Source of the DNA: a virus
Strand: one strand, 5' to 3'
IMG/VR virus record: IMGVR_UViG_3300009503_000022
Span: 46,356 to 110,355 of that record
Length of the DNA: 64,000 nucleotides
Translations under genes and position numbers: made by a program
The notes under the pieces: generated by a model
The model's input: only the letters and a program-made list of their open reading frames with translations
What the model was told of the DNA's origin: nothing
The model's database searches: none
Shown here: positions 35,698 to 63,835 of the stretch, piece after piece
Layout of the letters: every line of letters starts with the position of its first letter
Numbering within the stretch: the stretch's first letter is position 1

Positions 35698-38600
35698 TTA
35701 ATAATTTAATATTTTTCTTAAATAAGAAGCAGCTTCAAATATCTCTTTTAAATCTAATTCTTCTATAGTTTTATCCTTTTCCTCTAAATATGCATTTAAT
35801 TCCATTTCTATTATCTTCTTTGAATTATCATTTATTTTACTTGCTTTAACTTCATTAAAATATTCTTTTAATAAATTAAAAGCCGCCTTTAATTTAGGAT
35901 TTTTAATAAATAACCAAGAAAATGGAGCAATAAAATCTATAATCATCTTTAATGTCTCTTTAATTCCTGCTTCTTTCTCAATTCCATAATCTAATCTAGT
36001 CTTCAATTGAAATTTATCTTCTTCTTTACTTCTAATCATTAACCATTTTCTATCTTCCATCGGTATTAAAGTAAATTCTCCCTTTACTTTATCAGTATTT
36101 AATCTAAATTTTCTTTTCTTATCTGACCATTCTAATATCTCTGCATCTCCAATTGCATAAGTTTCAACTATTCCTGCTCCATATTCACCTTTAGGTATTT
36201 CACCTTCAAAATAAATATAATCTACTGGATGATCCTCTGTTTCTATAAATAAAACCTTTTGTCCAGGTTCTGGTATTTTCCTCGTAACCCCTGATTTTAA
36301 AACACCATCTTTAAATATTCTCCAATCAAAATGTTTACCTGCCTTTTTTGCATAATGCAATTGAATCCCTGACTTGCCTTCTTCTCTAATTTTAGGTTTT
36401 GGTTCAGGAGTAATATCAAAATCTCTTTTTTTCTTATATTCTTCCAATCTATCATCTTCTTGAGCTTTTTTTAAAAAATATTCGTCTTCAACTTCTTGTA
36501 AATATGTAAACTTATTAAATATCTTAACACTTGATTCCAATTTCCAAGAAGCAGTTTTCAAAAATTTAGTAGTCTTATTTTGAATATCTTTTATTATTGC
36601 AGTAACACGAGGAGGTGAAATACCTAAAATCTCTGCAATCTCAACTTGACTATATCCTGATACTAACAAATTAAATACCTTCTTACCTACATCTGTAAGA
36701 AGATTTAATATTTTATCAAATAAATCATTTACTATTACTTTTTCCTCAGGTGAATCATACTTAGATTCAATAATATTCTTTATTTTAATAGGAACATCTT
36801 TATCTTCATATATAACATCTTCTAAACTATATGCTATTGTATTTACTATTTCTTTTTGAAGATATAAATCTCTTATTTCATCTTTTACTCTACCATCTAA
36901 TTGGTTATATAACCACGTTGAAAATTTTCCTTTTTCTCTATCATAAGTATCTATTGAATGTAAAATAATTTCATCAATAATAGAAGAAGCATCATAAAAC
37001 CCTGCTTTTCCTAATTTATTTTCAAATGGATACGCTAACCTTTTTAATTCAGGATAAATTTCGTTAAATATTTTTTCATCTTTCGTTTCTTTATATCTAA
37101 TCACTTTTTCATCTAAATCTTCTATTGATGATTTTTTATACAACTTTTTAAGTACTTTATCTATTTTAGCATCTTCCTTCTCAAAATCAAATAATTTATC
37201 TTCATCTATTGGTAAACATACTAATCCTGTTTTTCCTGATAAACTATACGGAACTCTTAATCCACCTGCTCTATGTAACGTACTAGTATCTAGCCTACAA
37301 GTATTTTCCTTTTTCGTAACTCCAGTAGTCAATCTTTTATCATTTTTATTTTCTATATATTCTTCTAAAGCTAATTTAATTGCTGTTCTAGCTTCATCTA
37401 CATCTATTTCTTTTTTTAATATACCATAAACGTGAAATCCTTTTGAACCAGAAAATACTATCTTAGTATCAACTACATTATCCATTGTTTCTATTAAATC
37501 TTTAACCTCAAAAACTATATCCTTTAAATCATCCCAAGAAAATCCTTCTTTTGGATCTAAATCAACATATAAAAATGGAGTAGTATCCTTAAGAGAAAAA
37601 TGCCATTCAACATTTCTACCATTATTTAATTTATCAAAATCTTTAATATTTATCGGTTTTCCCTCTATCTTTCTTTGAACTATAGTATCATCAACTTTCT
37701 TAAATAAAGTCACATCAAGATCATACTTTAAATAAGTTTCTATAATATCATCTTTAACAGTATCATAATACAAAAAAATCTCACCTTCATTAAGTCCTTC
37801 TTTATAAAATTCATTTGGTTCTACTATTATAGTTTCTGGATGCTTTGGTTTATAAGCATAAATTAAACTACTTTCTATTTTCATTGATTTACCTTCGTGA
37901 TAACAAGCATTTTGTTCAAATTCATTAGTATAAATTGTCCATCTATTTCTACCTTTATTTTTGGATTCATAAAGTGCTTTATCTGCTTTAGTAAATGAAT
38001 CATCTATATTAGATTCTAACGGAGCAGCTCCTAAACTTATAGTCACTGGTATTTCAGTTTGTTTAGTTTCTTCTTCAACTGTATTTCTTATCAATTCCAA
38101 TAATTCTTTTAAATCCTCTTCATCATCTAATTCAATAAATATTACAAATTCTTCTCCGCCCCATCTAACTATATTTTCTATATCAAGACTTTTAATTAAA
38201 TCGGCAACTGTCTTTAATACCTCGTCGCCTTTATCGTGACCATATTCATCATTAATTTGCTTAAAATGATCTATATCAGTTAAAATTATATAATTATTTT
38301 CTTCTAATAATCTTTCTTCATTATCCTCTAACCAATGCCTTGAATACAACCCAGTTAAAGCATCTGTATATAATCTTTTTTTCAATTCCTCGACTTCTTT
38401 TTGTAAATCTTTATTTTCATCTATTTCTGATTCTATCTTTCTTATTTCAGTCGGATGAACTTCAGATATTATAGATCCATCTTCTAAAGGTTTATCCCAC
38501 TTGACTACATAATCAACATCATAAATTGTTCCTCCTCGCTCTTCAGGAGCTATATCTATTATTGTTCCTGTATTATCAAAATTAATTGCCTCTATTTTAG

Positions 38601-41600
38601 TTCCCTTTTCATAAACTCCTTTTCGCGATTGAAAAGCTTTCAAACGAATCACTTTTTCATTTTTATATATATTCTCATCAAATTTTTTCTTTCTTAAATT
38701 TTCATCTAATGTTTCTACTACATTATAATATTTATCTATAATCTTATATATTTTCTCTGGATTTCTTAAAAATACAAATTCATCTCTTATTTTTAATTGA
38801 TCAAAAGTAGTTATTTCCCCTTCTTCTATTCCATGTCTTTTAAATAAACTTGAATAACATTGTTTTCTAACTAAATTTACATATTCGCTTTCTTTCTTTA
38901 AAAATTCATCTAATTCAGGATATTGCTCTTTAACATCTTTAATTTTCTTTTCTAAAACATCTAAATATTCTATCATTTTATTCCAATAAGGTTCATAAGA
39001 ATCGTCCCATATAACTATCTTATTTTTTCCTGTATTCTTACCTAATACAAGAGATTTGTGAGCATCTGTAGGAATTTTTCCAATCCCTACAGTTGCTGTA
39101 TGTCCTGTATTTTTTAAATAAATATCTATAAATTGCTGTCCTAATTTTTTGGCTTCTTCTATCGTAATAGGAATACTTATAAATATATTATCTCCACCTT
39201 CAAATATTACCTCTCCATTATACTTAGTAATTATTTCTATTATTTCTTTATTAGCATTTTTTATTTGATTAGATATATTTTTTGCTACTTCTGTATCTTT
39301 ATCATAAATGGCTTCTTCTACTCTATCTCCAATATCATCACCATCAATGGCTATATAAACAAGATTACCTTTTTCTGATCTCTGTTTACCAATTTGAGCT
39401 TCTTTATGAAAACACTCTTTTCCTTCTGAATACAATACTATTCTATCTGGTGAAATAGGTCCAACAACCACAGCAGTTCCTGCTATTCTTAAAGTATCTT
39501 CACCGGTTATATCTTTATAATAAACACCCCATTCCGGATCGTGTCTACTTTTTAGTCCTCTAGGAATTTGCTCATCATGTTTCCAATATAAAAATTTTCC
39601 TTCTACATCATCAACATAAGCACCTAAATCGACTAACATTGCATAATCTGGTAATAAATCTAAACCTGAAACATCTACTTTATAAATATATTTACCAGGA
39701 AACTTTCCTGGTTCTTTAGAAACAAAAACAGATTCTTCTGGTAACCAACCATAATCAAAAAATTGTTCCCCAGCTTCTGTTAATCCTTTTGTTTTTCTAC
39801 CCACTAAACCCTCTTTCAAAATTATTTCTGGAGGAACATTTGTACTATGATATAAATATTTAATAGCTTTCTTTTCTAATTCTTCAATCTTTTTCATTAC
39901 TCCTTTATGAATAAGTCTAGGTTTCATATCCTTTATTTTTTGTAAAACTTCTTTTTTTAACTCATATAACATCTTAATTTCATCACCAGATGGAGAATAT
40001 TTAATTGACCAATTTATTTCTCTTACGAGTTCCCATAAATTCCAAATTATTAAATCAATAGTTTCACCTGTTGCTTTCATATTTAAAATATCTTTAAAAT
40101 CTTCTTCTAATTCACTTATAGGTTTACCAATTTGAGCTTCTTTATGAAAATATTCTCCTAACTTCATTTGTTCTCTTAATTCCCATATTTTAAATAATTC
40201 TGATTCTTGAGCTAAACTTGGACTCCATTGCATTCTTAATCCATCAAAATGAATCCAATCAACTATTTTATCTATAACATAAAATTTTTCAAAACCTTCT
40301 TTTGAATAAGCTTCTTCACCTTGTTTAATCAATTCTTCTATTTTCTTTATGTTTCTTTTTATAGGTTCTACTTCAACTCTTGTTGTGCCTCCAGTTTTTA
40401 ATTTATTTAAATGATAAATTAATTCTTCTAAAATTTTATCTAATTTATCATCATCATAAATACCCTTAGATGCATCAATATAAACTTTTCTTAAATCAGT
40501 AAGAAATATTGCTTCTTTGTTTAAAAAAGCTCTTAATTGTTCTAACTTATTATTATTTCCATATTGAAAAATATTTGCAATTCTAGACATTAACCAACCC
40601 TTTTCCTCAAATCCAGGTATTTGCTCAAGCCTTAAATCTTCTGGAATTACTTTCTTATCCTCTCTATATCTTTCTATTCTTGGTTTTCTAATTATCCCTG
40701 TCATTTTATCTTCTATTTGTATCCATTTATTATCTTCAAACTTATATGCAGGTCCTTTTTTTATATTTACTTCTTCACCTTGTACTTCTACAATACAAGG
40801 TTCTTTAAAAGGATCAACCCAAATTCTACCATCTTCATCTTCAAATACTTTATTTCTTTCTGCCCATTCTATAAATTCTAATCGTTCCTTATCAGTAAAC
40901 CCTGTCCCAACCTTACCATTAAGCCTAAATATCCCTTCTTTATCTCTAAATGAAGTTAATATTGCGCCCATCTGTTCAGGATGCTTTTTACTTCTTTCTA
41001 CTGCAACTACAACTAAATCAATAGATAAAATCGGTTTTACCTTAACTATTTTATTATCATAATAAATTATAAGTCCTTCATAACCATATTTTTGAGGTTG
41101 TACAACCTTATCCCATAATTCGTCTACATCATTTAAATCAGCATTTTCAAAATATTCTGCTGGCTTTACATACTTTCCTTTGCTAAACAAATTTCTTAAT
41201 CCACTAATTCTATATGATAAATCTTTATCTTGCCAATCAATTCCATCTATACTTATAATATCAAATACTATTATCCTTATTCTTTCTTCATCTTCTTTAG
41301 TTTTCGGAGCCTTTAATAAACTCTGAGATTTTAAATAACTTAATGGAATACCATCTTCACTAACTCCATAAATTTCTCCAACTCCTATAAATTCTTTTAA
41401 CGGTTTATTTTTTAATAATTCTGTAATTTCATCCGTAACAGGTAAATCATAACGAATTGTACCTGCTCTAGTAACTGTTATTGTTCTACCATCTTTATAT
41501 TCTATTCCAACTATTTCTCCATCTAATTTTACCGATATTGTAAATTTCTTACCTTTTAATTTTTCTCTCAATTCATCTATAGTATAAAACTTCATCGACA

Positions 41601-41676
41601 TTCTTTCTTTATAATCACTTACTATAGATGAAATTGGATTTTCTTTATCTATTTCTTTTTTAAATGCTAATATCAT
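35698..41676 (-). CDS. Giant multi-enzyme (poly)protein: ligase, ART-like, GGDN palm, GGDEF, primase-polymerase, sigma factor, 3'-phosphoesterase
   Basis: A 1992-residue protein. Domains in order: ATP-dependent DNA ligase (30-340, nucleophile Lys50 in KLDGE), helical region (360-600), ADP-ribosyltransferase-like (606-750), GGDN palm (772-890), SH3-like (1010-1080), GGDEF (1103-1250, GGEEF at 1173), LigD-type polymerase (1275-1510), sigma factor (1520-1706), LigD-type phosphoesterase (1765-1885), helical tail. Short aromatic/Leu-x-K-x-A/S motifs lie between domains: FLNKEA 384, FHKEA 510 and 756, FLKKES 925, LYKKS 1512, FLKTA 1705, FLKKA 1734, IEKEA 1899. It sits between neck and connector genes and its ATG overlaps the upstream stop. 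Cleavage by the prohead protease and packaging in the head are inferred. Confidence 0.85.
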   Translation of the reverse strand: MILAFKKEIDKENPISSIVSDYKERMSMKFYTIDELREKLKGKKFTISVKLDGEIVGIEYKDGRTITVTRAGTIRYDLPVTDEITELLKNKPLKEFIGVGEIYGVSEDGIPLSYLKSQSLLKAPKTKEDEERIRIIVFDIISIDGIDWQDKDLSYRISGLRNLFSKGKYVKPAEYFENADLNDVDELWDKVVQPQKYGYEGLIIYYDNKIVKVKPILSIDLVVVAVERSKKHPEQMGAILTSFRDKEGIFRLNGKVGTGFTDKERLEFIEWAERNKVFEDEDGRIWVDPFKEPCIVEVQGEEVNIKKGPAYKFEDNKWIQIEDKMTGIIRKPRIERYREDKKVIPEDLRLEQIPGFEEKGWLMSRIANIFQYGNNNKLEQLRAFLNKEAIFLTDLRKVYIDASKGIYDDDKLDKILEELIYHLNKLKTGGTTRVEVEPIKRNIKKIEELIKQGEEAYSKEGFEKFYVIDKIVDWIHFDGLRMQWSPSLAQESELFKIWELREQMKLGEYFHKEAQIGKPISELEEDFKDILNMKATGETIDLIIWNLWELVREINWSIKYSPSGDEIKMLYELKKEVLQKIKDMKPRLIHKGVMKKIEELEKKAIKYLYHSTNVPPEIILKEGLVGRKTKGLTEAGEQFFDYGWLPEESVFVSKEPGKFPGKYIYKVDVSGLDLLPDYAMLVDLGAYVDDVEGKFLYWKHDEQIPRGLKSRHDPEWGVYYKDITGEDTLRIAGTAVVVGPISPDRIVLYSEGKECFHKEAQIGKQRSEKGNLVYIAIDGDDIGDRVEEAIYDKDTEVAKNISNQIKNANKEIIEIITKYNGEVIFEGGDNIFISIPITIEEAKKLGQQFIDIYLKNTGHTATVGIGKIPTDAHKSLVLGKNTGKNKIVIWDDSYEPYWNKMIEYLDVLEKKIKDVKEQYPELDEFLKKESEYVNLVRKQCYSSLFKRHGIEEGEITTFDQLKIRDEFVFLRNPEKIYKIIDKYYNVVETLDENLRKKKFDENIYKNEKVIRLKAFQSRKGVYEKGTKIEAINFDNTGTIIDIAPEERGGTIYDVDYVVKWDKPLEDGSIISEVHPTEIRKIESEIDENKDLQKEVEELKKRLYTDALTGLYSRHWLEDNEERLLEENNYIILTDIDHFKQINDEYGHDKGDEVLKTVADLIKSLDIENIVRWGGEEFVIFIELDDEEDLKELLELIRNTVEEETKQTEIPVTISLGAAPLESNIDDSFTKADKALYESKNKGRNRWTIYTNEFEQNACYHEGKSMKIESSLIYAYKPKHPETIIVEPNEFYKEGLNEGEIFLYYDTVKDDIIETYLKYDLDVTLFKKVDDTIVQRKIEGKPINIKDFDKLNNGRNVEWHFSLKDTTPFLYVDLDPKEGFSWDDLKDIVFEVKDLIETMDNVVDTKIVFSGSKGFHVYGILKKEIDVDEARTAIKLALEEYIENKNDKRLTTGVTKKENTCRLDTSTLHRAGGLRVPYSLSGKTGLVCLPIDEDKLFDFEKEDAKIDKVLKKLYKKSSIEDLDEKVIRYKETKDEKIFNEIYPELKRLAYPFENKLGKAGFYDASSIIDEIILHSIDTYDREKGKFSTWLYNQLDGRVKDEIRDLYLQKEIVNTIAYSLEDVIYEDKDVPIKIKNIIESKYDSPEEKVIVNDLFDKILNLLTDVGKKVFNLLVSGYSQVEIAEILGISPPRVTAIIKDIQNKTTKFLKTASWKLESSVKIFNKFTYLQEVEDEYFLKKAQEDDRLEEYKKKRDFDITPEPKPKIREEGKSGIQLHYAKKAGKHFDWRIFKDGVLKSGVTRKIPEPGQKVLFIETEDHPVDYIYFEGEIPKGEYGAGIVETYAIGDAEILEWSDKKRKFRLNTDKVKGEFTLIPMEDRKWLMIRSKEEDKFQLKTRLDYGIEKEAGIKETLKMIIDFIAPFSWLFIKNPKLKAAFNLLKEYFNEVKASKINDNSKKIIEMELNAYLEEKDKTIEELDLKEIFEAASYLRKILNY
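36022..36384 (-). other. Domain: LigD-type 3'-phosphoesterase (residues ~1765-1885)
   Basis: IQLHYAKKAGKHFDWRIFKD carries the catalytic His and Asp/Arg pattern of LigD PE. It continues GVLKSGVTRKIPEPGQKVLF, EDHPVDYIYFEGEIPKGEYG and WLMIR. It trims 3' ends before joining. All signature positions are present. Confidence 0.9.
36559..37119 (-). other. Domain: sigma-70-family sigma factor (residues ~1520-1706)
   Basis: Region 2-like helices (FNEIYPELKRLAYPFENKLG, then DTYDREKGKFSTWLYNQLDG) are followed by a region 4 helix-turn-helix (FNLLVSGYSQVEIAEILGIS, PPRVTAIIKDIQ). The size of ~190 residues suits an ECF-like or phage sigma factor that would redirect host RNA polymerase. Confidence 0.8.
37147..37854 (-). 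other. Domain: LigD POL/archaeo-eukaryotic primase-type polymerase (residues ~1275-1510)
   Basis: FLYVDLDPKEGFSWDDLKD has the catalytic DxD (1372/1374). IVFSGSKGFHVYGILKK is the SGxxGxH nucleotide-binding motif, and RLDTSTLHRAGGLRVPYSLS followed by GKTGLV is the third motif. This is the LigD POL/PriS pattern. A possible internal start (ATG at 37884 after GAAGGT) lies just before it. Confidence 0.85.
37927..38370 (-). other. Domain: GGDEF diguanylate cyclase (residues ~1103-1250)
   Basis: Complete and canonical: TDALTGLYSRHWLE, then ILTDIDHFKQINDEYGHDKG with the metal-binding Asp, IVRWGGEEFVIFI with the GGEEF active site, VTISLGAAP, and FTKADKALYESKNKGRNRW. The RxxD inhibitory site is missing before GGEEF, so product inhibition may be lost. 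A coiled coil (1083-1102) before it could dimerise the domain. Confidence 0.9.
39007..39363 (-). other. Domain: GGDN palm, mCpol/GTP cyclohydrolase III-like (residues ~772-890)
   Basis: LVYIAIDGDDIGDRVEEAI gives the first metal-binding loop. GEVIFEGGDNIFISIP gives the GGDN hairpin, and ATVGIGKIPTDAHKSLVLGK matches the last conserved strand and helix of this palm group. mCpol proteins make cyclic dinucleotides; GTP cyclohydrolase III opens GTP. Which chemistry applies is open. Confidence 0.65.
39384..39412. repeat. 29-bp direct repeat coding for a domain-linker motif, copy 1
   Basis: Identical to 40122-40150 over 29 bases. On the minus strand it codes for FHKEAQIGK, residues ~756-764, directly before the GGDN palm domain. 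Identity at the DNA level suggests duplication of the linker or recombination at it. Confidence 0.85.
39427..39861 (-). other. Domain: ADP-ribosyltransferase-like (residues ~606-750)
   Basis: KYLYHSTNVPPEIILKEGL is the usual first strand and helix of H-[ST]-type ART folds; the His would hold NAD. SVFVSKEPGKFPGKYIYKV and ISPDRIVLYSE complete the core. The catalytic Glu cannot be fixed by eye. Candidates are in GEDTLRIAG (Glu726) and near the end. Confidence 0.5.
40122..40150. repeat. 29-bp direct repeat coding for a domain-linker motif, copy 2
   Basis: Copy of 39384-39412. It codes for FHKEAQIGK at residues ~510-518, between a helical region and the ART-like unit of the giant protein. Confidence 0.85.
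40657..41589 (-). other. Domain: ATP-dependent DNA ligase (residues ~30-340 of the giant protein)
   Basis: Motif I SVKLDGEIVG with Lys50 as the adenylation site. RAGTIRYDLP follows, motif III RIIVFDIISI, motif IV GYEGLIIYYD and motif V IVKVKP. The OB domain has LNGKVGTGFTDKERLEF, characteristic of ATP-dependent ligases including the LigD LIG domain. All key residues are present, so activity is expected. Confidence 0.9.
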
Positions 41677-42056: not shown

Positions 42057-44117
42057 TTATATCTCCTCTTTAATCAATTCTTTAGCTGCATTAACAAATA
42101 AATTAAAATCATCAACTTTAACTTTTTTACTTATTCTAGAAAATATCTCATCCATATATCCTTCAATAATACTATCATAATTTATATCTATTTTTTTATT
42201 ATCTTCAGTCGCTATTTTCTTTAATAAATTAGCATCTTCAATAACAGCATTAACAATATCGTCTAATTGAATATTTGCTTTAATAAATTCTTTAATAGAC
42301 GATTCTTTTTCAATAGTATCTTTAATCTCTTTTTTTATTTTCTTTTGAGTTTTATCATCAAATTCTTTTTTATACTTATCCTTTGCTTTTAAAAATTTTT
42401 CTATTTCTTTATCTAACTCTTTTTTCTTTTCTTCAGTTACTTCTTCATCTACCTTAATTATTTCAGTTGGATGAACTTCAGTAATTGTTTCTCCTGCTAC
42501 TGGAGTATCCCATTTTATAATATAATCTATATCTCCAGGTTTTTCATCATTTTTATAAATTACATATCCCATAAGCCCATTCGTCTGTAATTGAACTCTA
42601 TCATATACTTCAAATTCGTCTTCTTCTATAGCTGATGTTAATAATAATCTATATTTCATTACATTTTCATCTTTATACTCGTTCATTTTAAATTTAAACT
42701 CAGTATTATCATCTAAAGATGCAGTCACTATTCCTAATCTTGGATCAAATCGTCTATAAGTATAAATATCAGGACTATTTTCAAATTGAAATTTATCACC
42801 TAATTTTAATTCACTAAACTTAACATATCCTTGTTTTTGATATATTTTATCGTAATCTTGAATAGATTCTTTTTTCTTCATCTTTTTATCTTTTTTTATT
42901 TCTTTATCATAAGATTTTTGTAATTTTTTTTCAGATTTAGATTTATCTATTTTCCTTTCCATATTCATATTAACACCCTCGGATAATTCTGGTAATTCTC
43001 TAAATTTAACAGTAGAATTATCAGAAACATTTAAAGTATCTATATTAATAGTTGTATCTGATTTTCTATTTAATGAAGATCTTAAACTTGCTATTTTCCT
43101 CAATCTATTAGGATATTTCTCTAATAAATCTTTAATATTGCCTCTTAAACCAGTTACATCCCCTTCTATATTTGTAACATTTCCTTCAATATAAGAAACA
43201 TCTCCTTTTATGTTAGATACATCTCCTTTTAAATAAGAAACATTTCCCCTTATATTAGATACATCTCCTACAATATTTGAAGCATCTCCATATATATTTG
43301 AAGCATCTCCATATATATTTGAAGCATCTCCATATATTTTAGATTTATCCCCTGTTACATTTTCATCATTAATCAATCTACTTTTTTGTGATTTTATTCT
43401 TAATGAAGACTTTTTCGTTCTTTTAAATTTTTCAAATAAATCTGGATTTTCACTAATAAACTTATTTACACCATCCATAAACCATACATGCCACCCAGAA
43501 CCTTCTGTTTCTAATTTCTTTTTTATACTTTCCCAACCTTCTTCAAAATAATATTCTGCTTCTTTTTGAGCTTTTTTATCACCTTTATAAGCAGGATCTA
43601 TAATTAAACTATCCATAAGATCAATTGCATATTCTTGTATTGGAGTTTCAAGTTTAATAACATCCGATTTTCTTAATTGCATATTTCCTCCTAAATTTGC
43701 AAAAGATTTCTCTAATACATCTTGAGGATTTTCTATAACCATTTTATCTCGAGGAACTTTTTGCTCTTCAGGAAATACAAAAAGATCATCTTTTAAAATA
43801 GTATCATTTTGAGATTTCCTTTCTAATAATCTTTTTACAAAATCTCTCCATTCTTCCTTATTTTCTTCTACCATTCCATCAAATATTTCTTTTGCTTTAT
43901 CTTCTGTAACATCATAAATATTCATAAAATACTTTACTATTTCTGAATCTATATCATCGGCAATTTTTTCTAAAGTAAATTCGCTTCCTGTATCTAATTC
44001 AGGATTAGATGATATATCAGGATTAGTTTTAAAATAATCCAACTCGTGAAATTTTCCTGAATCATGTGGATATTTAATCTCATCAAATCCACCTTGAGCT
44101 TTACGTCTCAAATTCAT
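42057..44117 (-). CDS. Multi-domain internal-head candidate with GDVSNI repeats and SH3-like domain
   Basis: A 686-residue protein. Its start MNLRRKAQGG has the motif seen at putative cleavage sites. Residues 55-230 are helical. Residues 238-258 (SSLRIKSQKSRLINDENVTG) match the N-terminus of the 63218-63835 product. Then come about ten 7-residue repeats such as IYGDASN / IKGDVSY (255-330). LNRKSD (349) separates a Lys-rich region, an SH3-like barrel (505-556, DIDYIIKWDTPVAGETITEV) and a helical C-terminus. The same barrel (VDYVVKWDKPLEDG) is in the giant protein. Probably a modular virion protein processed by the prohead protease. Confidence 0.55.
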   Translation of the reverse strand: MNLRRKAQGGFDEIKYPHDSGKFHELDYFKTNPDISSNPELDTGSEFTLEKIADDIDSEIVKYFMNIYDVTEDKAKEIFDGMVEENKEEWRDFVKRLLERKSQNDTILKDDLFVFPEEQKVPRDKMVIENPQDVLEKSFANLGGNMQLRKSDVIKLETPIQEYAIDLMDSLIIDPAYKGDKKAQKEAEYYFEEGWESIKKKLETEGSGWHVWFMDGVNKFISENPDLFEKFKRTKKSSLRIKSQKSRLINDENVTGDKSKIYGDASNIYGDASNIYGDASNIVGDVSNIRGNVSYLKGDVSNIKGDVSYIEGNVTNIEGDVTGLRGNIKDLLEKYPNRLRKIASLRSSLNRKSDTTINIDTLNVSDNSTVKFRELPELSEGVNMNMERKIDKSKSEKKLQKSYDKEIKKDKKMKKKESIQDYDKIYQKQGYVKFSELKLGDKFQFENSPDIYTYRRFDPRLGIVTASLDDNTEFKFKMNEYKDENVMKYRLLLTSAIEEDEFEVYDRVQLQTNGLMGYVIYKNDEKPGDIDYIIKWDTPVAGETITEVHPTEIIKVDEEVTEEKKKELDKEIEKFLKAKDKYKKEFDDKTQKKIKKEIKDTIEKESSIKEFIKANIQLDDIVNAVIEDANLLKKIATEDNKKIDINYDSIIEGYMDEIFSRISKKVKVDDFNLFVNAAKELIKEEI

Positions 44118-48274: not shown

Positions 48275-49255
48275 TTACACAATTGTAAACTTGGTAATAC
48301 CAGCGGTATTGTGAATACCAATACCAATCTGTTCCCAACCTACTATATCATACTGATTTTTTGGAATATTATCAAATATCTTAACTTCAACTGCTTTCCT
48401 TTCTGGAATTCTTCCTAATTTATCAGGTGTCGTAAATACATATACTGTTTTTGCAGGACATCTTGTAGTTACAAGCATCCTTGCTCCATATATAGAACCA
48501 AACAACCCAGTTTCAACTATTGTATTCAACGAAACCTGATCTAAATCTGTAGAATTCCACTTTAAAATATCTGCATATTGCTCTGGATTCATCATCACTC
48601 CACCAACAATTAACTGATTTGCTAAGATCTGCTTATATGCATCTGCAAGAGCATATCTAGTTACTGAAGAAGCAGTAAATGGAGTATTAGGTCCATTTAC
48701 GACTGCTGCCTCCATAACTTTAACTATCTCATCATCTTCCGCAATTGCCATAGCAATAGCAACCCTCTCTTTACCTCTATCAAATGCAGGATATCTCCTG
48801 ATTTGAATTTCTTCCCATTTTAATTCATGATCAATTGAAATTGGAAATGTAGGGAATTGCACCCTCTTTATATTTGCTTGAAATCTAGGAGCCTCTCCTC
48901 TTGCTGCAACTACTACTGCTCCAAATTCTGGAATATCCAAATCATAAATTGGAAATTCCCCTTGAGGTATTTCATCTACCAGTAATACCCTATTTCTTCC
49001 AACTGCTACATAATCTAATCTACTCTTTAGAGGAACCTGCATAGCAAATGCAACCCTCTTTAAACCATTAGGTCCAGTAAATATAGCATTAAAAGCTTTC
49101 TCAGCTTTTTCAATCATCGCAGATGTAGGAACTACTGGCGATGAAGCTGTCCTTGAAAATCCATCTTCTCCAAGAACTGATTCAGAAATTTTTAATAAAT
49201 TTTTAATAAACTCGTCTTTCTGTCTAGAAGATAAATTACTTAATTTCCCTATCAT
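48275..49255 (-). CDS. Major capsid protein, HK97 fold
   Basis: A 326-residue protein in the normal place after protease and decoration genes. The E-loop/P-domain layout is visible: NRVLLVDEIPQGEFPIYDLD, GAVVVAARGEAPRFQANIKR, FPTFPISIDHELKWEEIQIR, then VVNGPNTPFTASSVTRYALA and GSIYGARMLVTTRCPAKTVY. The first ~38 residues are helical and charged, followed by GFSRTASSPVVPTS. This is a likely maturation site where the prohead protease removes the delta region. Strong start site and moderate codon enrichment suit a highly expressed gene. Confidence 0.8.
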   Translation of the reverse strand: MIGKLSNLSSRQKDEFIKNLLKISESVLGEDGFSRTASSPVVPTSAMIEKAEKAFNAIFTGPNGLKRVAFAMQVPLKSRLDYVAVGRNRVLLVDEIPQGEFPIYDLDIPEFGAVVVAARGEAPRFQANIKRVQFPTFPISIDHELKWEEIQIRRYPAFDRGKERVAIAMAIAEDDEIVKVMEAAVVNGPNTPFTASSVTRYALADAYKQILANQLIVGGVMMNPEQYADILKWNSTDLDQVSLNTIVETGLFGSIYGARMLVTTRCPAKTVYVFTTPDKLGRIPERKAVEVKIFDNIPKNQYDIVGWEQIGIGIHNTAGITKFTIV

Positions 49256-49813: not shown

Positions 49814-50689
49814 TTATTGCTCATTTCTTATATTTTGAGCTTGTGTATGCATATTCCATACATCCATTAAATTCTGCAACGGACTTGATTCGGTTCCTTT
49901 CTCATCTACTTGAATTTCAGGTATATTATCTTTACTAGAAATTATCTCTGTACCTTCGGGTTTCTTTTCAGTTCTTATATTCAATATTTCGGCAACTACT
50001 GCTAATCCTTCTTCATTCAAATTCGATAACTTTTCAATCAATTTCTTTTTAAATTCTTCATCTAATGGTTTAACTGTTTCGATATTAGCAATTAATTTAA
50101 CAATATCTTCACTCTTTGCTTTCCTTTCAATCGATTCATTCCTATCTTCTAAAAACTTTATTCTAGCATTTTTCATTTTAATCATATCTTCTAATCTAGA
50201 AATCTTTTCAAAAGCATCATCCAATTTACTTTTTAAATTCAATGCAATTTCGGGTTCAGCAACTGTTCTAGAAGGAAATCTACTATAATAATCTTTTATC
50301 TTTGTTCCATCTGTCCTTGTAGGAATTTTGAGCTTTTTAATTTCATCTTCTCTTATAGATCTTGTTATTTTATCAGGTTTTGCAGGCTCAGTTGCAACTT
50401 CCTCCTGCTTTATTGCAAAAAAGTCATAGGCTTTCCTTCTAAGTGAAGCATTTCTTGGCAACCACTTTAAAAATCCTTCGTATGTTCTACCACATTCTCT
50501 TATAATTTGATCTATAGCTTCATCAACCGAAATTACTTTTTTATCTCCACTAGCTATTCTCTTCTGAATACCAAAAGGTATTATCAAAGATGCTCTTACT
50601 ACTTTTGTTTTTCCGTCGGAACTTTTTGCTACAAAATAAGACTTATCAAAAGTTTCACCCGGAATATATTGTATTGTTAAATCTTTCAT
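49814..50689 (-). CDS. Nested scaffold-type protein from an internal start in the protease gene
   Basis: ATG at 50689 (Met463 of the fusion, MKDLTIQYIPGETFDKSYFV) is preceded by AAAGGAGGGGAG at a suitable distance, stronger than most sites inside genes. Translation would give 291 residues holding the C-terminal coiled coil and the SLRRKA motif. Nested protease/scaffold pairs are known in lambda-like and other phages. A further site, GAGGAGG before Met258 (51304), is too far away to be convincing. Confidence 0.5.
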   Translation of the reverse strand: MKDLTIQYIPGETFDKSYFVAKSSDGKTKVVRASLIIPFGIQKRIASGDKKVISVDEAIDQIIRECGRTYEGFLKWLPRNASLRRKAYDFFAIKQEEVATEPAKPDKITRSIREDEIKKLKIPTRTDGTKIKDYYSRFPSRTVAEPEIALNLKSKLDDAFEKISRLEDMIKMKNARIKFLEDRNESIERKAKSEDIVKLIANIETVKPLDEEFKKKLIEKLSNLNEEGLAVVAEILNIRTEKKPEGTEIISSKDNIPEIQVDEKGTESSPLQNLMDVWNMHTQAQNIRNEQ

Positions 50690-52075
50690 AATCTTACTCC
50701 CCTCCTTTATTTGAGTTTCCTCAGTAACCTGAGGTTTCTCTAATTTTAATATTTGTCTATATCTATTTACTTTCTCTATTTCTGATAATTCCTCAGAAAT
50801 CTTTTCAACCAACAATTGTGTTGGATTACCTCTATCAAATAACCTCAACATTTCCTTTTCTTTTACAATCTCAGGTTTTAATTCATAACCATCACCCAAA
50901 ACTATTATCTCTTGCTCTAATTGAGATCGTACAGATTTTGATTCCTTTATTTGCTCAATCTCAACTTCTTCAGATTTTTTCTTTGGTTTTTCTTCTAATT
51001 TCTCATCCTCTTTTTTTGTTCTAAATTTTTCCTCTTCCTTTTCGGTTTTAGGTTTTTCCTCTTCTTTTTCAGTTTTAGGTTTTTCTTTTTCTTTTTTAAC
51101 ATCTTCAGTTTCTTCTAAATTTTTTAACTTATCTGCAAGTTCTTTACTAACTTCTTCTTTAACCAAATTTTTAACAATACTATCCATCTTAGATTCTAAT
51201 AAACTATCAACTATTTCTTCAATCTTATCTTCAAAATCCTCTTCTCTATTATCAATAAGTGCTTTTTTCAAAAATTTATAATCTTTAAACGATATTTTAT
51301 TCATAACAGTTCTTTTCGCCTCCTCTTTTTTATTAGCAATTATAGTATTTGCATAAATATTAGCCGAAGGATCAGCTGGTTGTTTAACACCACTCAATTC
51401 ATTAAATACTATTTTTTTATTAATTTCATAAGCAATCTTTTTTCCATTAAATTCCTTTATGTTTGGATGATCATAAATCTTACCTTTTACAAATTCTGGA
51501 TTAGGCATCGTATGAGCTTCATCTAAATACGGCTTCATGTGTTTACATAATTCATCTTCATTATGTGCAACATTATTACAAATTGGACAAATTGCCTCAG
51601 CACATAAGCATCCCATTGAAACACTTTTAATTTTTCCATTTTTTATTTCTTCACAAATATCTGGACAATCTTTCTTTGACACTGCAACAATACATTCAAC
51701 ATATTCTTTATCGTCAAGAGCATCTGCTTTTACAATTATACCTTTTGCCTTCTCAGGATCATCACTATCATGCTCTATATAAAACCCTTTGCTTATAAAT
51801 GTATTAACTGCAGCTTTTATCTCTTTCCAAGGAAAAAAATCCCCATTTCCATTAGGTCCATATCTTTCACTACCAGAAATTGCTCTACATTTAAAATATA
51901 AAAAATTATCTGTATCAAATTCATTTTGTAAAGTAATATATGATTTAGCATAAGACTCTCGAACAATCTGTTTCCAATTTTGAGCTAAATTAGCAATCTT
52001 CTCAAAACCTAAAACCTTTAATTCACTCTCATCTAATAATTCTATATCGACAAGGCTTCCAATCCTTTTAAACAT
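49814..52075 (-). CDS. Prohead protease fused to a scaffold-like coiled-coil region
   Basis: A 753-residue protein. The N-terminal ~240 residues have the prohead protease layout of large phages: GPNGNGDFFPWKEI, FISKGFYIEHDSDD with His102, KGIIVKADALDD, then IKSVSMGCLC with Ser153. A zinc-like CPICNNVAHNEDELCKH follows. Residues 310-380 are extremely Lys/Glu-rich. Residues 460-753 look like scaffold/core, with RIASG (507), NASLRRKAY (542) and a coiled coil (615-660). An in-frame ATG at 50689 has a strong GGAGGGGAG site and could yield a separate 291-residue scaffold, as in lambda C/Nu3. It should process the capsid and internal proteins. Confidence 0.75.
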   Translation of the reverse strand: MFKRIGSLVDIELLDESELKVLGFEKIANLAQNWKQIVRESYAKSYITLQNEFDTDNFLYFKCRAISGSERYGPNGNGDFFPWKEIKAAVNTFISKGFYIEHDSDDPEKAKGIIVKADALDDKEYVECIVAVSKKDCPDICEEIKNGKIKSVSMGCLCAEAICPICNNVAHNEDELCKHMKPYLDEAHTMPNPEFVKGKIYDHPNIKEFNGKKIAYEINKKIVFNELSGVKQPADPSANIYANTIIANKKEEAKRTVMNKISFKDYKFLKKALIDNREEDFEDKIEEIVDSLLESKMDSIVKNLVKEEVSKELADKLKNLEETEDVKKEKEKPKTEKEEEKPKTEKEEEKFRTKKEDEKLEEKPKKKSEEVEIEQIKESKSVRSQLEQEIIVLGDGYELKPEIVKEKEMLRLFDRGNPTQLLVEKISEELSEIEKVNRYRQILKLEKPQVTEETQIKEGSKIMKDLTIQYIPGETFDKSYFVAKSSDGKTKVVRASLIIPFGIQKRIASGDKKVISVDEAIDQIIRECGRTYEGFLKWLPRNASLRRKAYDFFAIKQEEVATEPAKPDKITRSIREDEIKKLKIPTRTDGTKIKDYYSRFPSRTVAEPEIALNLKSKLDDAFEKISRLEDMIKMKNARIKFLEDRNESIERKAKSEDIVKLIANIETVKPLDEEFKKKLIEKLSNLNEEGLAVVAEILNIRTEKKPEGTEIISSKDNIPEIQVDEKGTESSPLQNLMDVWNMHTQAQNIRNEQ

Positions 52076-63217: not shown

Positions 63218-63835
63218 TCAAAATCTCCTTTCTAACCTATCAGGATATTTTTTTAATAAATCTTCGATATCACCTCTTAAACCAGTCACATCACCTTCTA
63301 CACCTGTAACATCACCTCGTATACCAGAAACCTCTCCAACTATATTAGATACATCTCCTTTTAAATGAGATACATCACCAAACGTATCAGTTACATCACC
63401 TTTTATGTTAGATACATCACCTTCTATACTAGATACATCTCCTTCTATATTAGATACATCACCTCTTATATTAGATACATCGCCCCTTATATTAGATACA
63501 TATCCTTCTATATCTGATGCATCTCCCTTTATATTTGAAGCATCTCCATATATATTTGATACATCACCTCTTAAATTAGATACATCACCTTCTATATATA
63601 GATCAAACGGAGAACCTTCTATATAAGCTACTTCTCCTCTTATATTAGATACATCACCTTCTAAATAAGAAACATCTCCCCTTATTTTAGATACATCTCC
63701 ACTTATATTTGATGCATCTCCTTTTATATTCGAAGCATCTCCCCATATATTAGACTTATCTCCTGTTACATTTTCATCATTAATCAATCTCCTTCTTTGC
63801 GATTTTATTCTTAATGAAGATTTTAACCAATACAT
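63218..63835 (-). CDS. GDVSNI repeat protein
   Basis: A 205-residue protein. The N-terminus MYWLKSSLRIKSQRRRLIND carries the recurring signature and SLRIKSQ motif. ENVTGDKSNIWGDASNI then leads into about 22 tandem 7-residue repeats (xGDVSNI, with variants GDASNI, GDVSYL, GDVTGV) to residue ~193, ending DIEDLLKKYPDRLERRF. Such short-period repeats are expected to form a beta-helix. The 42057-44117 product (residues 238-340) contains the same order of elements, and the gene at the right edge is another copy. Confidence 0.7.
   Translation of the reverse strand: MYWLKSSLRIKSQRRRLINDENVTGDKSNIWGDASNIKGDASNISGDVSKIRGDVSYLEGDVSNIRGEVAYIEGSPFDLYIEGDVSNLRGDVSNIYGDASNIKGDASDIEGYVSNIRGDVSNIRGDVSNIEGDVSSIEGDVSNIKGDVTDTFGDVSHLKGDVSNIVGEVSGIRGDVTGVEGDVTGLRGDIEDLLKKYPDRLERRF

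Follow-up and report, generated by a model that had tools for sequence, protein, structure and literature searches.

Phage polyvalent proteins, in which 2 to 15 unrelated domains are combined, were described by Iyer et al. in 2017, and one of them carries a GGDEF domain together with an ART domain (PMC5512222). In the main text of that study, these proteins are large, have unrelated enzymes in one chain, are encoded near late genes, and are predicted to be packaged and injected. One-chain delivery is proposed there for the N4 virion RNA polymerase, which, like the primase-polymerase, shows a "jump-start" theme, and PrimPol domains are reported only in conjugative elements (PMC5512222). Phage P1 carries DarB, a protein of 250 kDa, in its capsid (PMC9024508). 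In the giant phage SPN3US, which is phiKZ-like, ejected head proteins are trimmed at a short motif by the prohead protease during maturation, with mainly N-terminal propeptides being removed at S/A-x-E (PMC5694885). Bacterial LigD carries ligase, Prim-Pol, and 3'-phosphoesterase modules in one chain. In Panoptes defense, the product of an mCpol (minimal CRISPR polymerase), OptS, keeps an effector inactive, and phage sponges trigger this effector (PMC12657218, PMC12657230). D6 and D57 of KpOptS have been shown to be catalytic (PMC12657218), and ATP selectivity is attributed to two residues, N34 among them (PMC12657218, PMC12657230).

The window analyzed here, a 64-kb stretch forming the final part of an incomplete virus record of 110,355 bases, contains an ORF of 1992 codons that starts with ATG and has zero internal stops, in agreement with the single uninterrupted frame claimed in a first-pass annotation. 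In support of the start codon, it overlaps, as ATGA, the stop of a 53-aa ORF lying upstream, and the first residues line up with the beginning of the orthologous ligase ORF in G001, the nearest relative, with 81% identity in the capsid protein. Pfam and NCBIfam searches place six domains in the order ligase, mCpol, GGDEF, LigD Prim-Pol, sigma-70-like, and LigD 3'-phosphoesterase (Table 1). Judged by its several unrelated activities in one chain and by the position of its gene beside late and virion genes, the 1992-aa protein is, as a kind, a phage polyvalent protein. We think it rather likely that this protein is a polyprotein carried as virion cargo, which would be packed, processed by the head-maturation protease, and ejected alongside the DNA.

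TABLE 1 Features of the 1992-aa ORF and of its head-region neighbors in the window (a slash marks the candidate cut)
Feature	Coordinates	Strand	Evidence
Multi-enzyme ORF, proposed virion polyprotein	35698..41676	-	Open frame + profile matches
ATP-dependent DNA ligase, nucleotidyltransferase + OB fold, aa 1-345	40642..41676	-	PF01068 1.5e-11, PF04679 8.8e-6
Candidate site MSRIA/N, aa 367	40576..40590	-	Motif scan
Candidate site LNKEA/I, aa 389	40510..40524	-	Motif scan
Segment without known domain, aa 390-514, between two candidate cleavage sites	40135..40509	-	No credible Pfam match
Candidate site FHKEA/QIGK, aa 514	40135..40149	-	Motif scan + exact repeat
Segment aa 515-760, flanked by two identical candidate cleavage sites	39397..40134	-	29-nt exact direct repeat at each end
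Candidate site FHKEA/QIGK, aa 760, just before mCpol	39397..39411	-	Motif scan + exact repeat
mCpol (minimal CRISPR polymerase), aa 771-912	38941..39366	-	PF18182 1.1e-18; IDGDD + GGDN motifs
Domain aa 931-1103, SH3-like by eye, common to conserved head-region neighbor	38368..38886	-	phmmer 1.4e-12 to ORF 42057-44117
GGDEF diguanylate cyclase (GGEEF), aa 1098-1250	37927..38385	-	PF00990 1e-30
LigD-type primase-polymerase, aa 1285-1517	37126..37824	-	PF21686 4e-13; DLD, SGSKGFH
Sigma-70-like module, regions 2 + 4, aa 1535-1705	36562..37074	-	TIGR02937 6.3e-12
Candidate site FLKTA/S, aa 1709, after sigma module	36550..36564	-	Motif scan
Candidate site FLKKA/Q, aa 1738, just before phosphoesterase	36463..36477	-	Motif scan
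LigD-type 3'-phosphoesterase, aa 1741-1890	36007..36456	-	TIGR02777 7.6e-30; PF13298 1.8e-16
Candidate site IEKEA/G, aa 1903, after phosphoesterase	35968..35982	-	Motif scan
C-terminal tail, aa 1904-1992	35698..35967	-	Weak likeness to C-terminus of separate G001 mCpol protein
Conserved head-region protein with aa 931-1103 domain, four motif sites	42057..44117	-	phrog_19577 minor head 2.7e-6
Major capsid protein, phage G gp27-related; candidate site FSRTA/SS at aa 37	48275..49255	-	phrog_2522 2.7e-31
Head maturation protease, long C-terminal extension, proposed processing enzyme	49814..52075	-	phrog_18299 5.8e-14

With gp27 of phage G, the capsid protein shares 32% identity (7e-37), which is consistent with a phage G-like giant phage. 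The gene order is portal, protease, capsid protein, small genes, the conserved head-region protein, the 1992-aa ORF, further genes, and sheath. Also in keeping with such a phage, the same record encodes ThyX, another sigma-70 protein, and a UDG-PHP-PolIII polymerase that contains an intein-like sequence. The polymerase (L108:9050-13267 of G000, outside the analyzed 64 kb) is a 1406-aa uracil-DNA glycosylase/PHP/PolIII alpha fusion with an intein splicing sequence, and the second sigma-70 region 2 protein (L108:16776-17783) gives the phage at least two sigma-like proteins. Giant-phage group 3.2 has a PolIII-type polymerase, and no sigma factors are reported in group 3 (PMC7824862). Bacillus phage G (Donellivirus) shares the homologous capsid protein and a PolIII-type DNA polymerase, but the cargo protein was not found there, the tblastn matches listed among phages being to GGDEF or ligase only. 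No Ku gene was found in the incomplete 110-kb record. Tandem hexapeptide-type repeats (GDASNIYG/GDVSNIKG) occur in the ORFs at 42057-44117 and 63218-63835, with 49-65% identity between the two.

The motifs named in the first-pass annotation, KLDGE, GGDN, GGEEF, DLD (DxD), and SGSKGFH, are all present, the catalytic motifs, as read from the sequence, are apparently intact, and per-domain profile searches bear out its ligase, GGDEF, LigD-type polymerase, and LigD-type phosphoesterase assignments and point to a sigma-70-like module. The ligase nucleotidyltransferase spans aa 31-204 (PF01068, 1.5e-11), with the KLDGE lysine in place, and is followed by the OB region (aa 235-341); the ligase part is 52% identical to the G001 ligase. 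The GGDEF profile matches aa 1103-1245 (PF00990, 1e-30), with the GG[DE]EF signature in the form GGEEF, and the domain, as read from the sequence, is without an RxxD inhibition site at the usual place. The Prim-Pol profile matches aa 1362-1515 (PF21686, 4e-13), and this segment is 35% identical to the Prim-Pol part of the G001 ORF. The sigma module (aa 1535-1701) scores 45.4 with TIGR02937 against a cut-off of 42.9, and the separate Pfam region 2 and region 4 matches fall below theirs. The phosphoesterase match (TIGR02777, 7.6e-30) falls below the equivalog cut-off; its His/His/Asp/Arg pattern can be read from the sequence, and, of the five records tested, no other carries the domain. The protein is not filed as a true LigD because TIGR02776 gives 63 bits against a cut-off of 373. 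Its order also differs from that of LigD, since mCpol, GGDEF, and sigma are interspersed among the three LigD-type modules (ligase first, phosphoesterase last), and candidate cleavage sites set the ligase and phosphoesterase apart from the rest. The C-terminal tail resembles the last residues of the G001 mCpol protein (pairwise BLAST, 1.6e-5; phmmer, 0.009).

The ART-like segment proposed earlier (aa 515-760) is unconfirmed: it has no Pfam match up to E=10 and no PDB match, two single-sequence AlphaFold models have low mean pLDDT values of 47 and 35, and among phages, plasmids, PDB, Pfam, and viral contigs its sole match is an identical contig. The aa 931-1103 domain, common to the conserved head-region neighbor, also matches the counterparts of that neighbor in G001 and G003-G005 (phmmer, 1e-6 to 2e-3), and a scan with it as a probe for further cargo gave known relatives only.

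The domain first described as a "GGDN palm" proves to be an mCpol, a family to which Panoptes OptS also belongs, with a profile match at aa 774-889 (PF18182, 1.1e-18; NF033576 above its cut-off) and a match of 4e-9 to the OptS structures PDB 9nwn/9mnr. The Asp pair matching KpOptS D6 and D57 is kept, the S30 position is also conserved, and the equivalent of N34 is Lys; the phage mCpol may therefore make a cyclic dinucleotide. Unlike OptS, it is phage-borne and embedded in a polyprotein. No 2TM-beta (OptE) effector gene was seen beside the ORF, whose flanking genes are head and tail genes, so the locus was rejected as a Panoptes system. As a speculation, an mCpol supplied by the phage could keep the Panoptes effector quiet and thereby counter the defense. 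Methanogen mCpol genes (L104, L105, and L106) stand alone, with no obvious effector beside them; by eye, they adjoin cobyric-acid-synthase-like genes and, in two cases, tryptophan genes.

The sequence FHKEAQIGK occurs twice in the 1992-aa ORF, just before mCpol and 246 residues upstream, and the copies are encoded by a 29-nt exact direct repeat (35 nt at 94%) with an in-frame spacing of 738 nt. The motif, noticed by eye in this ORF, was generalized to [LIFYMV]-x-[KR]-x-A and afterwards tested elsewhere, so that the fair test is given by the other head-region proteins. These contain 21 copies against 9.8 expected (p ~0.0005, with block shuffles too), and the whole head region contains 32 against 13.6 (z 5.3, with 15 other spacings below z 1.7), while tail proteins show no enrichment. 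Four related genomes of the 58% capsid identity group contain 105 copies against 53 expected (z 8.2; three other spacings reach 3.2-3.8), although, being related to one another, they are not independent, and the pair of G001 and L004 shows weak enrichment (z 1.8). A looser motif was dropped, as S at P1 gives z 2.1 in the other head proteins and G none. The most telling fact is the conservation of the motif near the N-terminus of the capsid protein in all 10 distinct near relatives, including this virus, with varying flanking residues (FSRTA/SS, FKREA/GV, MTKSA/SA, FARTA/GN, FARSA/GN, FARSA/GS, FTRSA/GT, FTKKA/SV, and FVKKA/AS, the last in two). Protease/scaffold proteins also bear motif sites, with those in the head maturation protease at aa 28, 272, 543, 549, and 653. 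The genome has a head protease together with a motif that is common to capsid protein and scaffold and enriched in head proteins, and we infer that the head-maturation protease recognizes hydrophobic-x-[KR]-x-A. The 1992-aa ORF itself has 11 copies against ~3.8 expected (p 0.001), of which 7 fall in inter-domain linkers (binomial p 0.009, with linkers making up 26% of the length by hand-drawn boundaries). Some of the copies lie inside domains (aa 173, 1548, and 1779) and would need protection by folding.

At the G001 locus, which has the same neighbors, ligase and PrimPol form one ORF, whose ligase carries an intein in its KxDG region; a 410-aa ORF without assigned function and a separate mCpol ORF are also there, and the modules thus need not be joined. 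G001 (L005/L020) is rich in insertions, with intein-like inserts in the portal and protease frames and a capsid gene split by an ORF-bearing insert. G003-G005, in which capsid identity is 58%, have neither the 1992-aa gene nor the G001-type set at the syntenic place, and no ligase or phosphoesterase elsewhere in their analyzed records, indicating that the virion as such can do without the gene. A tblastn search of 50,697 phage records found no matching mCpol, Prim-Pol, or phosphoesterase. The split in G001, the empty loci of G003-G005, and the collection without matches indicate a rare set whose gene structure changes between close relatives. In distant relatives, large ORFs (~1850 aa) adjoining the capsid gene were rejected as similar polyproteins, since Pfam detected no such enzyme set in the six tested. 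ORFs of 1800-2200 aa lie upstream of the capsid gene in L046, L048, L051, L052, L054, L066, L078-L080, L087, L093, and L094; those of L046 and L087, which were searched, have no enzyme domains like the 1992-aa set, and the L087 ORF has an intein. Proteins of ~820 aa in the head-tail region (L021:15477-17933, L022:15892-18345, and L023:15789-18248) resemble, by eye, two glycosyltransferase-2 domains with TPR repeats.

Several observations argue for a virion polyprotein: the position of the ORF between the capsid and sheath genes, downstream of portal and protease; the domain common to the conserved head-region neighbor; the motif, enriched in head proteins and present in linkers, with repeats bounding one segment; and the separate ORFs that carry the modules in G001. 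The trimmed head proteins that SPN3US and its relatives eject, and P1 DarB, serve as precedents. Packaging, cleavage, ejection, and every activity of the protein are drawn by inference from the sequence of one virus and one split relative. The polyprotein would be made with the late head proteins, co-assembled with the scaffold, and packed in the prohead, where the protease would cut it at the candidate sites. The predicted masses are ~43 kDa for the ligase, 28 kDa for one further segment, 110 kDa for a piece comprising mCpol, GGDEF, PrimPol, and sigma, and 19.5 kDa for the phosphoesterase; another, small segment and the tail would also be released. Because no clear candidate site separates mCpol, GGDEF, PrimPol, and sigma, the largest predicted piece would still be multifunctional. 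After ejection into the next cell, the ends of the phage DNA would be repaired or joined by the ligase, polymerase, and 3'-phosphoesterase. Signaling nucleotides made by the cyclases would fill the cell, with the GGDEF product possibly disturbing host c-di-GMP signaling, while early phage genes would be transcribed by host RNA polymerase under the direction of the sigma module. The delivered package proposed in the first-pass annotation fits the head-module context, the shared domain, and the head-protease-like sites, with delivery itself still a predicted step. Its description of a single protein joining these activities stands for the frame and the six domains, but such joining may not hold in the virion, given the candidate maturation-protease sites in the linkers; the 1992-aa protein is probably a precursor that is cut into several proteins.

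Alternatively, though we consider this unlikely, a polyvalent protein of 230 kDa could be packaged and ejected whole with its domains tethered, the motifs being incidental or a packaging signal. Full-length delivery is described for N4 vRNAP, ArdC, and TraC1 in the main text of PMC5512222, P1 has the 250-kDa DarB in its capsid, and the piece at aa 761-1709 holds four enzymes without clear internal sites; the enrichment of the motif at its exact spacing in independent head proteins, its siting in linkers, and the separate genes in G001 argue instead for cutting. It is more improbable that the protein is expressed late or early in the infected cell without ever entering the virion, and that the gene lies in the head module by accident: G003-G005 are without the gene despite otherwise conserved head modules, but the gene lies between the capsid and sheath genes, and its product shares a domain with a conserved head-region protein and bears head-type motifs. 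An assembly chimera or fusion artefact of several genes is very improbable. G001 does have separate ORFs, and the sole identical contig (100% over 20 kb) ends within the ORF at residue 849, so that it is no independent check on the 3' half. Across this break, however, the similarity to the G001 mCpol continues; the two ends of the ORF and the genes on either side correspond in order to those of the G001 locus; and 1992 codons run without a stop at 27% GC.

Compared with the known systems, the cargo polyprotein that we favor differs from the SPN3US head proteins in having its candidate sites between whole enzymes and in its motif, and from polyvalent proteins in that no zincin peptidase domain was detected, processing being proposed via a separately encoded head protease. 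The main text of PMC5512222 names no mCpol, LigD, or sigma domain. As far as checked against that text, an mCpol in a phage virion-region protein and the LigD trio with sigma in one chain are new, as is, as far as checked, the placing of candidate sites between enzymes for a head protease encoded elsewhere in the genome. The earlier statement that no protein with this combination had been described agrees with our searches, in which the combination was found in none of the sequence collections covered and not in the literature on phage polyvalent proteins as represented by that main text, but the kind of protein had been described. A doubtful extension of the polyprotein reading would have interchangeable enzyme cassettes joined at repeats coding for protease sites, giving an animal-virus-like head polyprotein whose injected mCpol replenishes the cyclic dinucleotide that guards the Panoptes effector, leaving phage sponges unable to set it off.

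If the polyprotein reading is true, giant phages carry ready-made takeover enzymes in fixed proportion by means of a precursor cut inside the head, and the short motif would predict other hidden cargo in phage G-like viruses. With the LigD trio, a large phage would enter the cell already equipped to repair DNA ends, and the mCpol, if carried in a virion protein, would turn a defense enzyme to the attacker's use in the Panoptes arms race.
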